DNA of 7,043 bases from Candidatus Mcinerneyibacteriota bacterium (GTDB lineage Bacteria > AUK180 > JAQVHJ01): the NCBI GenBank assembly GCA_030630935.1, contig DAOVMD010000155.1:1-7043 (forward strand), written 5' to 3'. This document shows positions 2,035-7,043 of the stretch, one piece after another. The first letter of the stretch is position 1; each line of letters starts with the position of its first letter. Under the pieces are notes generated by a model. It ran no database searches, was not told the DNA's origin, and saw only the letters and a program-made list of their open reading frames with translations. The translations under genes were made by a program, and so were the position numbers.

Positions 2035-3510
2035 ATGAAAAAAACAATTTTGATTTTAGTTTTACTTTTATTTGGCATCTTGGTATTGGGAGCTGATTGG
2101 ACGGTTGGAGTTTATATTTGTGCCGACAATAACCTTGAGGCTTATGCTTCAGGGGGAGAGTTACATTCAGGTATTTACGGAGATGTAAATGAGATGGAGA
2201 TGGTCGGTTCAGATACCAATGTCCACATTATTGTAGAGATAGATAAGCGGACTACTGCCTATACTGGTTGGGAAACAGCGAAGCGATTTTATATTGAAAA
2301 GGACGCTGATCCTAACACAATCACTTCCCCAGAGCTTGAGGATTTAGGTGAGATTAATATGGGGCACCCCAATACGCTTACGAGTTTCATTAATTATTTA
2401 ATTAATACTTCGACTTTTTCTTCAACGAAGTACGCTTTGATAATCTGGAATCATGGTTCAGGCTGGGAGAGAAGGGTTTCATCCTATGATGTTCCGCGTA
2501 AATGGATATGTGAGGACGTCACTTCTAATGATGTGCTTACGGTGAAGGAATTAAAGACTGCCCTTGAGAATTCAGCCAAACCGCCTTCAGGGAAGTTTGA
2601 CGTTTTAGCTTTTGATGCATGCTTCATGCAGATGCTTGAAGTTTTGTATGAAATTCAGGATTATGCAGAGGTTATTGTTGCATCTGAAGAGAGTGAACCG
2701 GCATTTGGTTATCCTTATCATACGATTTTTAATGATCTTATTAATACACCCGGGATGACCTCTTCAGAATTTGGTGAGGTAATTGCACAGGATTATGTTG
2801 CATCGTATGATATCAGTGATTATAGTACACAATCGGCAGTTTATTCTGATTCAATTACCGGGGTAATAACAGCACTGGATAATTTTGCACTTGAACTAAT
2901 TAGCTGCTTCGGAACCAACTTTGAAGCAATCAATAATATCAGGGCTCGCACGCAAACATTTGATGATTTAGATTATATTGATCTAATGGATTTTTGTAAT
3001 AGGATAAATTCTAAAACATCATTTCCTCCTAAATTACGCTCCGCTGCAAATGCACTTGTAAATTCTCTGGATAATACAATTATATATTCCGGGAATACAG
3101 GTGGGGTAGTTAGAAAAGCGAATGGTATTTCAATTTATTATCCAACTAACCCTGCAGATTATATAGTTGAATATAACTCTACCAGGCTTGCGAATGATAC
3201 GCATTGGGATGAGTTTATCAAACGTGATTTTAGTTATGGGGATGATTTTAGTAATATAATCGTTTACCCAAACCCATGCTTTATCTCCAAGTCTGAGTAT
3301 GTAATAATCGAGAATATTCCGCTTAATTCAGAATTAAAAATATTTACAATCTCCGGGGGTATTCTTCATAGTGTGAATACGGGGTTTCAGTCTACCTATT
3401 TCTGGAAAACAAAAAATAAATATGGAAACATAATTGCTTCAGGAGTATATTTAATTAATGTGAAAAAGAACGGAAAATCAACAACCAGGAAATTAGTAAT
3501 TATAAAATGA
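2035..3510 (+). CDS. Secreted clostripain-family (C11) cysteine peptidase
   Basis: A 491-residue predicted exported protease. Residues 1-19 form a signal peptide (two Lys, a hydrophobic run, cleavage likely near GA-DW). The mature part opens with WTVGVYICADNNLE (22-35), the usual start of C11 domains. The catalytic dyad is visible as H140 in IIWNHGSGW and C196 in AFDACFMQMLE. Clostripain-type enzymes cut after Arg or Lys, but specificity cannot be read here, nor can self-activation be confirmed. From about residue 405 there is a separate beta-rich module: YPNP at 411-414, GNIIASGVYLI at 464-474 and KLVIIK at the end. This matches FlgD-like/type IX secretion-type C-terminal domains, suggesting export across the outer membrane or surface attachment. 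The ATG has only an A-rich AAAAAAG upstream, not a proper Shine-Dalgarno. It is first in the operon; its stop overlaps the next start (ATGA). Confidence 0.9.
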   Translation: MKKTILILVLLLFGILVLGADWTVGVYICADNNLEAYASGGELHSGIYGDVNEMEMVGSDTNVHIIVEIDKRTTAYTGWETAKRFYIEKDADPNTITSPELEDLGEINMGHPNTLTSFINYLINTSTFSSTKYALIIWNHGSGWERRVSSYDVPRKWICEDVTSNDVLTVKELKTALENSAKPPSGKFDVLAFDACFMQMLEVLYEIQDYAEVIVASEESEPAFGYPYHTIFNDLINTPGMTSSEFGEVIAQDYVASYDISDYSTQSAVYSDSITGVITALDNFALELISCFGTNFEAINNIRARTQTFDDLDYIDLMDFCNRINSKTSFPPKLRSAANALVNSLDNTIIYSGNTGGVVRKANGISIYYPTNPADYIVEYNSTRLANDTHWDEFIKRDFSYGDDFSNIIVYPNPCFISKSEYVIIENIPLNSELKIFTISGGILHSVNTGFQSTYFWKTKNKYGNIIASGVYLINVKKNGKSTTRKLVIIK

Positions 3511-4781
3511 AAGAGAAAAAACTAACAACACTAATTGGTATTATCACTGTTGTAGTAATTTTTACTATTATAGGTTTAATAGCAAGAAAGATAACCTTAT
3601 CTTCAGAACCGAAAACTGAATATAAGATATTAGTTGATCATGCCGCTGGTCTAAATATTCACGATCCGGTTTTTTTAAACGGGTTCAGAGTCGGGAAAGT
3701 AAGGAGTGTCGAGATATTCAACAGCAGAGCTTTAATTTTGATTTCAATTAATGAAACTGCTCGAATTAGCCGGGATGCTTATGTTGGAATTGAATTTTAC
3801 GGTTTAACAGGGAGTTTAAAGATCTCAATTGTTAATCCTGTCAACACAATGGCTTTTTATCCATTGGATTATGTCGGTTATATTGAGTGCTATGAACTAT
3901 TACCATTCGAATATTATACAGAGAAAATTGAAACTTTTGCAAAGAGTGTTTATTCATTTGATGAATATCTCTTAACAATCTCAACCGGACTTGCAAACCT
4001 TGAAGGTATAAATATCAGGGAATTTAAAGAAAGAATCGAAGGAATAAACTTTGACCTGAGTGGTATTGAGACAAATATTACAGGTGGAATTAATACCCTC
4101 GAACAATTTCTTGCGTCAACTTCAGATAATATCTCCACACTCAATACCACAGTGAATAACTTAAGCGGTAGATTTCAGCTTAATACGGAGAATTATTCAG
4201 AATTAAACGGGTTTAGAAATCTTCAACAATCTAAATACTTTGATACAAGTTCCGAATTATATAAGAATTTTGACAGCTTAAAATATAATTATAAAAAACT
4301 AACAGAATCCAAATCTGAAAAAGATATCAGCTGGAGGTTAGATACCCTTTATTCTAAAGAGAACAACTATATTCAGAATTTCCTGATAAACACTGATATT
4401 AATGAGAGTTTCAATTACAGAGTAGGTTTTTATTATAATTATTTTCAGGAAGATTCAGATGTTGAGCTTGACCTGACAGTAGGAAAGATTTATAATGGAT
4501 TTTTTATTTTACGTGGTGGGTTAGTTGAATCTACCCCGGGACTGGGGTTTGAGTTGAGATTAAGAAAGATTAGAGTTGATTCTGATATATTTAATATGTC
4601 AGACGAAGAATTATTTTTTAGAGCTATGATTAGTTTGAGAATTTTTGAAAATTTTAATCTTATCATGAGTTACCAGAATAGAGAAGATAAGTTATTTTAT
4701 TCAGGACTCGGTTTAGTCTTTGATGATAATGACCTGAAAAGAATTTTTGGTGTGTTGAAAATTATGAAAACCGGGGAGTAG
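3507..4781 (+). CDS. MCE/MlaD-family protein with C-terminal beta-rich domain
   Basis: A 424-residue predicted lipid-transport component. One N-terminal membrane helix (about 7-26) anchors it in the inner membrane. An MCE domain follows at about 38-113, with GLNIHDPVFLNGFRVGKVRS (48-67) matching the family's G-L-x-x-x-x-P-V-x-x-x-G-x-x-V-G pattern. Residues about 130-295 are mostly helical and polar, like the helical stretches that form tunnels in other MCE proteins. Residues about 302-419 alternate polar and hydrophobic residues, with RGGLVEST (336-343) and GLGLVFDDNDLKRIFG (400-415). These signatures recall the beta-strand C-terminus of a subset of MCE proteins that may reach the outer membrane. 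The ATG overlaps the upstream stop by 4 nt, implying translational coupling; the nearest AGGA (3487-3490) is too distant. No permease, ATPase or MlaC-like gene is nearby. The fold of the C-terminal domain is inference. Confidence 0.85.
   Translation: MKEKKLTTLIGIITVVVIFTIIGLIARKITLSSEPKTEYKILVDHAAGLNIHDPVFLNGFRVGKVRSVEIFNSRALILISINETARISRDAYVGIEFYGLTGSLKISIVNPVNTMAFYPLDYVGYIECYELLPFEYYTEKIETFAKSVYSFDEYLLTISTGLANLEGINIREFKERIEGINFDLSGIETNITGGINTLEQFLASTSDNISTLNTTVNNLSGRFQLNTENYSELNGFRNLQQSKYFDTSSELYKNFDSLKYNYKKLTESKSEKDISWRLDTLYSKENNYIQNFLINTDINESFNYRVGFYYNYFQEDSDVELDLTVGKIYNGFFILRGGLVESTPGLGFELRLRKIRVDSDIFNMSDEELFFRAMISLRIFENFNLIMSYQNREDKLFYSGLGLVFDDNDLKRIFGVLKIMKTGE
4773..4778 (+). promoter_or_regulatory. 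Ribosome binding site of the UbiB-family gene
   Basis: GGGGAG lies 6 nt before the ATG at 4785, inside the last codons of the MCE gene. It is the only clear Shine-Dalgarno sequence before a gene start in the window and supports this start. Confidence 0.7.
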
Positions 4782-4784
4782 TAA

Positions 4785-6467
4785 ATGCCGACCTTAAAGA
4801 ATAAATATAAATCAATCAAACGCTGGTCTGAAGTAATAGAAATCATTGTGAAAAATGGACTTGGCTTCCTTCTTTCAAAACTCCAATTAGGTTATCATTA
4901 TCTTGGTAAGAGGATGAAGAGAAAAGTAGTAAGCGGAGAAGATATTCCTGCTTCCAATATTGTTGAAAGGATCAGGAAATCATTTGAGGAGCTTGGACCG
5001 TCATTTATCAAATTAGGACAGATGCTTTCAACTCGTCCTGATATCATCCCAATTACATTGTGTGAGGAGTTAAAGAAACTTCAGGACAAGGTTACACCTT
5101 TACCATATTCAAGCCTTGAGTCAACCTTAATTGAAGCCTATGGAAAGAATTATAAGGAGCAGTTCGATTATATTGATGAGAATGCTTTAGCCTCAGCTTC
5201 ATTAGCTCAAGTTCACAGGGCCAAGTTAAAAAAGGAGCAGATCGAAGTTGTTCTTAAAATTCAGAAACCTAATCTGGAATCTATTATTGAAGGTGATATT
5301 CAAATAATGAAGGATTTTGCAGGGCTTATGAAAAAATATGAGTTTGGTACTGATGTATTGAATCCTGACCTTGTTGTTGACGAGTTCAAGAAAAATATTA
5401 CAGAAGAGATTAATTTTATTTTTGAAGCTCGAAATACTGAGAGAGTAAGAGAGTCTTTTGCAGGTGATGACCAGATTATTATTCCTGAAGTCTTTTGGGA
5501 CTATTCTTCCAGAAAAGTTATGGTAACAAAGTTCATTGCGGGAAGGAAACTCAATGAAATTGACTTTGATAAGGAACCAGAGTATGATGCTGAGATTTTG
5601 ATAAACAGGGGGATGTCGGCTTTTTTGAAAATGATATTTGAGGATGGGTTCTTTCACGGTGACCCTCATCCGGGAAATATTATTGTTACTCATGATAAAA
5701 AAGTTGCACTTGTGGATTTTGGTATAATCGGGAGGTTGGATCAAAGAACCAGAAACTTATTAGTAGATGTGTTTATTGGAGTAATTTATCGCGATATTGA
5801 AAGGGTAGTCTATTCATTTGAAGATTTGGGCGTGATTGAAGAAGGGATTGAAATTAAAGAATTAAAATATGATATTTCATCTATGCTTGAGAAATATTAT
5901 GATATCCCGCTTGGAGACCTGGTAGTGAAGGATATCATTGAAGAAGCAATTGAAAAAATTGAGAAATATAATATTAAGATTCCACGAAACTTATATATCC
6001 TGATCAAGACTATGGTGACACTTGAGGGTATTGGAAAAGAGATTTATCCTGATTTCAATATTATGTCTTCAACAAAATACTACGCAAAAAAAATGATCAA
6101 GGATAAATACTCTCCTTTAAATTTCCTGAATGAAACGAGAAGGGGATTTTGGAAATTTCGAAGATTTCTTATGGCATTACCGGATGATTTAAATATGATC
6201 TTGAAGAAAACGAAAAAAGGTCAATTGAAAATTGAATTTGAACATAAAAACTTAGAGAAATTAGTTACCGGTTTAGATCATCTTTCTAATCGAATTGCAT
6301 TCTCACTAATAATCTCCTCACTTATTGTTTCTTCTTCTCTACTTATGAATTTCAATGTGGGTCCAAAAATATTTGGGATTTCTGTACTCGGACTAATAGG
6401 GTATATAATTGCTGGGGTTTTAGGATTATTTTTAATTATTGTAATCCTACGTTCTGGAAAGTATTAG
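4785..6467 (+). CDS. UbiB/AarF/ABC1-family atypical kinase
   Basis: A 560-residue member of the protein-kinase-like UbiB family, whose relatives support ubiquinone biosynthesis and lipid or quinone homeostasis. All hallmark motifs are present: FIKLGQ with the KxGQ motif at 76-79; the Ala-rich nucleotide loop ASASLAQVH (136-144) in place of a Gly-rich loop; the ATP-binding Lys in VVLKIQKP (K158); EEINFIFEARNTER at 207-220; the catalytic loop HGDPHPGN (291-298); and the metal-binding DFG (311-313). Two C-terminal membrane helices (about 504-521 and 529-555) are the usual anchor, so the kinase domain should sit on the cytoplasmic face of the inner membrane. The length is normal and no key residue is missing. 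It follows the MCE gene by 3 nt with a good ribosome binding site. No quinone biosynthesis gene is nearby, so the symbol ubiB is not assigned; a lipid role alongside the MCE protein is an alternative. Confidence 0.93.
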   Translation: MPTLKNKYKSIKRWSEVIEIIVKNGLGFLLSKLQLGYHYLGKRMKRKVVSGEDIPASNIVERIRKSFEELGPSFIKLGQMLSTRPDIIPITLCEELKKLQDKVTPLPYSSLESTLIEAYGKNYKEQFDYIDENALASASLAQVHRAKLKKEQIEVVLKIQKPNLESIIEGDIQIMKDFAGLMKKYEFGTDVLNPDLVVDEFKKNITEEINFIFEARNTERVRESFAGDDQIIIPEVFWDYSSRKVMVTKFIAGRKLNEIDFDKEPEYDAEILINRGMSAFLKMIFEDGFFHGDPHPGNIIVTHDKKVALVDFGIIGRLDQRTRNLLVDVFIGVIYRDIERVVYSFEDLGVIEEGIEIKELKYDISSMLEKYYDIPLGDLVVKDIIEEAIEKIEKYNIKIPRNLYILIKTMVTLEGIGKEIYPDFNIMSSTKYYAKKMIKDKYSPLNFLNETRRGFWKFRRFLMALPDDLNMILKKTKKGQLKIEFEHKNLEKLVTGLDHLSNRIAFSLIISSLIVSSSLLMNFNVGPKIFGISVLGLIGYIIAGVLGLFLIIVILRSGKY

Positions 6468-6892: not shown

Positions 6893-6912
6893 ATCTTCGA
6901 ATGAATACATTT

Positions 6913-7043
6913 TCAGAAGAAGAATCTTGCTCCTAAACCACCGGTAATATCGCCATCAGTTGATGGTATGATGAATAATCCGACGCCTACTTCTACAAAA
7001 ATCTCAAATCTTTGTATTTCAATACCTATACCTGCGACAAATC
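6913..7043 (-). CDS. C-terminal end of a probable outer-membrane beta-barrel protein (partial)
   Basis: On the minus strand an open frame enters from the right edge and ends at TGA (complement of 6913-6915), giving 42 residues. They start FVAGIGIEIQRFEIFVEVGV and finish GGLGARFFF. The alternating hydrophobic and small or polar residues, the Gly-rich turns and a terminal strand ending in Phe are typical of the last strands of outer-membrane barrels, where the final aromatic residue serves as a signal for the BAM assembly machinery. The rest of the gene is outside the window, so no family can be named. It is convergent with the three-gene operon. Confidence 0.65.
   Translation of the reverse strand, partial: FVAGIGIEIQRFEIFVEVGVGLFIIPSTDGDITGGLGARFFF

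Follow-up and report, generated by a model that had tools for sequence, protein, structure and literature searches.

A divergent paralogue of barrel-type long MlaD proteins, encoded beside a UbiB-like gene in a Candidatus Mcinerneyibacteriota bacterium, and its possible role as a bridge across the envelope

The window (the whole 7,043-nucleotide stretch analyzed, which is one entire contig, C118, of a 3.16-Mb genome in 471 contigs that is 80% complete) encodes a 424-residue MCE protein at positions 3507-4781 of the forward strand. Sequence comparison places this protein among the barrel-type long MlaD proteins, as a divergent paralogue. It probably combines an inner-membrane anchor, a periplasmic conduit and an outer-membrane barrel in one polypeptide and transfers lipid without MlaC or MlaA. 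This proposal builds on the domain order, the homology, the absence of MlaA and MlaC and the operon context. The long barrel-type MlaD architecture was already published in 2023 and has been described as widespread and ancestral (Grasekamp et al. 2023, PMC10665443); the window protein adds another case. The idea of a bridge, raised earlier in a sequence-only reading of this DNA, is well founded and not new. The operon that carries the gene, seen in two genomes, is a modest novelty.

Domain layout and the C-terminal module

The open reading frame begins with ATG and is uninterrupted, and a relative with 45% identity is encoded in a second genome (G001). A KD19 hydrophobicity scan returned a single strong transmembrane segment, with a maximum of 2.8 at residues 8-26 (3528-3584, +), and no second one; the inner-membrane anchor proposed in the sequence-only reading was thus found, as was the MCE domain that it had placed behind the anchor (PF02470 at residues 36-109; 3612-3833, +), which scored 39.5 bits against the Pfam cut-off of 25.1. 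The protein therefore shows the transmembrane segment followed by a single MCE domain that characterizes long barrel-type MlaD proteins. The equivalog model for short MlaD (TIGR04430) gave 32.6 bits, below its cut-off of 135. Between the MCE and C-terminal domains lies a predicted periplasmic, amphipathic helical region, residues 111-265 (3837-4301, +), whose helical hydrophobic moment was matched by just 8 of 2000 shuffles. The helical stretch had earlier been drawn at about residues 130-295; its character held up and its boundaries moved. Likewise, the β-rich C-terminus is borne out by homology to barrel-type MlaD, but it starts near residue 272 and not at 300, so that it spans about 150 residues. 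It comprises a predicted ten-stranded outer-membrane β-barrel domain (approximately residues 272-406; 4320-4724, +), identified by homology and alternation, with a β-signal-like last strand, YSGLGLVF (residues 398-405; 4698-4721, +). A conserved tail follows this strand, DDNDLKRIFG (family pattern D-x-D-L-K) and then VLKIMKTGE (4722-4778, +). GLGLVFDDNDLKRIFG, previously given as the end of the protein, is not its terminus: the nine further residues VLKIMKTGE come after it and are conserved in the G001 relative.

A profile was built from the C-termini of barrel-type MlaD proteins, with the window protein and its nearest relative excluded. It matched the full-length MCE protein with 60.0 bits (E 1.4e-17, scaled to 1000 sequences), and the highest-scoring of 1000 shuffled controls reached 12.3 bits; the other members of the profile are themselves inferred barrels. 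The expected similarity was thereby confirmed for a family of predicted membrane β-domains, and this profile match assigns the C-terminus to the barrel-MlaD module. The module is present in 97 of the 290 sampled genomes, mostly in open frames of the size of a long MlaD, and its genes adjoin MlaE-MlaF in the loci read. An alignment of 30 C-terminal domains contains ten segments with alternating hydrophobic columns. Two-residue alternation in the family profile was equalled or exceeded by 4 of 5000 permutations (mean) and by 1 of 5000 (strong-window count); in the window sequence alone the signal is weak, being reached by 97 and 161 of 5000 permutations, respectively. Among the 33 sequences listed, 31 follow the pattern x-x-G-x-x-hydrophobic-x-hydrophobic/aromatic in the last segment; in the form x-x-G-x-x-hydrophobic-x-hydrophobic, this pattern is known as the Bam β-signal. 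Stand-alone relatives of the module, about 220 residues long, lacking an MCE domain and apparently carrying a signal peptide, occur in the related genomes G081 (L100:622-1290, +) and G223 (L101:6807-7457, -); their existence speaks for an independent exported domain. These stand-alone proteins are encoded among surface-polysaccharide-like genes and fall in no Pfam or NCBIfam family.

A search of the PDB with the barrel profile returned weak matches only, the best being the outer-membrane barrel AlkL (E 0.094, not significant). AlphaFold2, run on two-sequence alignments, gave unusable models of both the full protein (pLDDT 34.6) and the C-terminal domain (pLDDT 31.9). Because neither model could be used, the closed ten-stranded barrel fold of residues ~272-406 and its placement in the outer membrane are predictions.

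Paralogues, operon and envelope context

The host genome contains three MCE genes. On contig C124, an mlaE-mlaF-mlaD operon encodes a 435-residue MlaD with the same C-terminal module as the window protein. A further mlaE-mlaF-mlaD operon, on C85 (L005:5862-8330), encodes a 329-residue MCE protein with a charged tail and without the barrel module; the ATPase of this operon is divergent (38 bits to ABC_tran), and a barrel-less MlaE-MlaF-MlaD operon is also found on contig C223 of G001. Downstream of the C124 mlaD (L004:12007-14783) are two tandem paralogues of about 415 residues, each showing by eye a transmembrane segment, a helical stretch and an end that resembles TonB-C. No mlaE or mlaF lies beside the MCE gene within the window, and the two MlaE genes found in the genome are those on C124 and C85. 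Because this adjacency is lacking, the MCE protein is classed by architecture as a long barrel-type MlaD and is not counted among MlaEFD operon members. In a tree built without the barrel-less MlaD rows, the window protein and its G001 relative form a long branch (2.39 changes per column). A grouping of the window protein with the barrel-less MlaD in a tree that included those rows was flagged as a meeting of long branches; with the rows removed, it stood on a long branch of its own.

The MCE gene is tightly packed between two others. Upstream, a clostripain (Peptidase_C11; 2035-3510, +) with a signal peptide by eye shares its last 4 bases with the start of the MCE gene. Downstream, a UbiB/AarF (ABC1 kinase-like) protein of 560 residues (4785-6467, +) begins 3 bases past the MCE stop. 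The latter carries the ABC1 domain (PF03109) and intact superfamily motifs (KxGQ, an A-rich loop, HGDxHxxN and DFG), and it scored 406 bits with the UbiB equivalog TIGR01982, under the cut-off of 487.6; it is therefore called UbiB-like and is not assigned as UbiB itself. G001 has the same clostripain-MCE-UbiB/AarF gene order, the MCE proteins being 45% identical and the UbiB-like proteins 71%. When genome contigs were searched with alignment A3, the sole match was JAQVHJ010000241.1 (MAG STE_202), which matches the G001 contig. The orphan operon is thus known from two genomes in two genera; G001 is 72% complete and may still encode a barrel-type MlaEFD. Viral contigs yielded no relative, and the remaining genomes read from the class contained only ordinary barrel-type MlaEFD and no close UbiB-like protein of the window type.

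Other features of the window were recorded. The clostripain ends in a Por-type (type IX secretion) sorting tail (TIGR04183, 33.5 bits; cut-off 23), which suggests, from the sequence, a type IX-like secretion system in the lineage. Convergent to the UbiB-like gene, positions 6905-7043 (-) encode what by eye is the C-terminus of an outer-membrane-type β-protein (...GGLGARFFF). Outside the operon, positions 293-1480 encode a radical SAM protein that is weakly similar to spore photoproduct lyase, its score of 17 bits falling short of the cut-off.

Neither MlaA nor MlaC was found in six genomes, the host and its relatives, in searches whose controls gave matches; the host genome is 80% complete and the agreeing relatives up to 96%. 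The setting free of both partners that had been envisaged for the protein was accordingly upheld. Omp85 and LpxC are present in all six genomes; therefore, an outer membrane is expected, probably with LPS. The LptD search, which gave matches in two proteobacterial controls only, was uninformative.

Proposed mechanism and alternatives

The closest described counterpart is the 419-residue MlaD of Veillonella parvula (Grasekamp et al. 2023, PMC10665443), which has a transmembrane segment, one MCE domain, extended helices and a C-terminal ten-strand barrel; when expressed separately, its barrel and its TM-MCE part went to the outer and the inner membrane, respectively. In that study a hexameric hydrophobic tunnel is proposed to operate together with MlaEF, and the arrangement of the barrels is left open (PMC10665443). 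Compared by published description, the window protein shares the order of parts, a nearly equal length and the lack of MlaA and MlaC. It differs in that its gene is flanked by clostripain and UbiB/AarF genes, with no adjacent mlaE or mlaF, and in that it occurs as a divergent paralogue in addition to a normal MlaEFD operon. The MlaD of Escherichia coli (MlaFEDB) also has a transmembrane anchor and a single MCE domain, but it is short, has no long helical span or barrel and depends on MlaC and MlaA. Other MCE proteins, PqiB and LetB (YebT), likewise span the periplasm; they do so with several stacked MCE domains, are not known to carry a fused outer-membrane barrel and have PqiA and LetA as partners. 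The mycobacterial Mce1A-F proteins share the MCE domain, a long helical tube and C-terminal strands, but they form a hetero-hexamer with one six-stranded barrel, to which each subunit gives one strand, in contrast to the full barrel per subunit predicted here.

Because of the homology, we infer that the window protein works in a manner like that of V. parvula MlaD. Its N-terminal helix would serve as the inner-membrane anchor, a hexameric ring would probably form from the MCE domains, and the helices would build a hydrophobic conduit spanning the periplasm. The C-terminal domain of each subunit would enter the outer membrane via Bam, and phospholipid or another lipid could then cross between the membranes without an MlaC shuttle or MlaA. 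In this scheme we infer the fold, the hexamer, the outer-membrane location, the cargo, the direction and the motor. The earlier suggestion that one polypeptide bridges the two membranes thus gains from the barrel-module homology, the alternation and the β-signal, but the known system still needs MlaEF, which is not adjacent here. Since the MCE gene has no MlaE or MlaF of its own, it would most likely work either with the C124 MlaEF in trans, alone or mixed with the C124 MlaD, or with no ABC motor at all. The C124 MlaEF acting in trans is the first choice of motor, and the UbiB-like neighbour is a minority reading.

The presence of that neighbour nevertheless raises the question of whether the UbiB/AarF ATPase is the inner-membrane partner, extracting lipid or quinone, feeding the MCE bridge and replacing MlaEF. 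The tight operon is kept in a second genus at the identities given above, the UbiB motifs of the neighbour are intact, and yeast UbiB proteins govern the distribution of CoQ, with Cqd1 making a contact site between inner and outer membranes and affecting phospholipids (PMC8346625, PMC10214851). On the other hand, the arrangement is seen in two genomes only, a UbiB homologue in a further genome (G037) stands without an MCE gene beside it over the stretch read, the mitochondrial parallel is an analogy, and interaction of operon mates is not a given. We consider such a partnership quite unlikely, and its fullest form, a transenvelope MCE bridge powered by a UbiB-family ATPase instead of the MlaEF ABC transporter and carrying quinone or another lipid, would be improbable. 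No mention of orphan copies or of AarF occurs in the main text of Grasekamp et al. 2023 (PMC10665443), and no paper linking the MCE and UbiB-like families was found in the literature searched.

A different alternative concerns the C-terminal domain, which might be decayed, or apposed to the membrane without a closed barrel, leaving an inner-membrane MCE protein with a β-rich tail. The long branch of the orphan pair and the weak alternation of the single sequence are consistent with this, and many long MlaDs have been reported with partial β tails (PMC10665443). However, both orphans retain the barrel module end to end (positions 3-189 and 5-189 of the 190-position profile), and the β-signal and tail are conserved; decay is judged unlikely. 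Since the same genome encodes another barrel MlaD, an ordinary one accompanied by MlaEF, the window protein might also not bridge the membranes by itself and could, for instance, be a minor or regulatory component of the C124 MlaD hexamer. Every domain is complete, however, and the orphan lineage has been kept in two genera, so that this role seems very improbable. The preferred reading is still a bridge of the long MlaD type.

The architecture of the window protein agrees with the view, already in print, that the lipid pathway commonly takes the form of a one-protein bridge and not of an MlaC shuttle. What is unusual here is the UbiB-type kinase-like neighbour in place of the usual transporter genes, and the orphan MCE copy beside it provides a connection between two families of lipid-handling proteins that can be put to the test.
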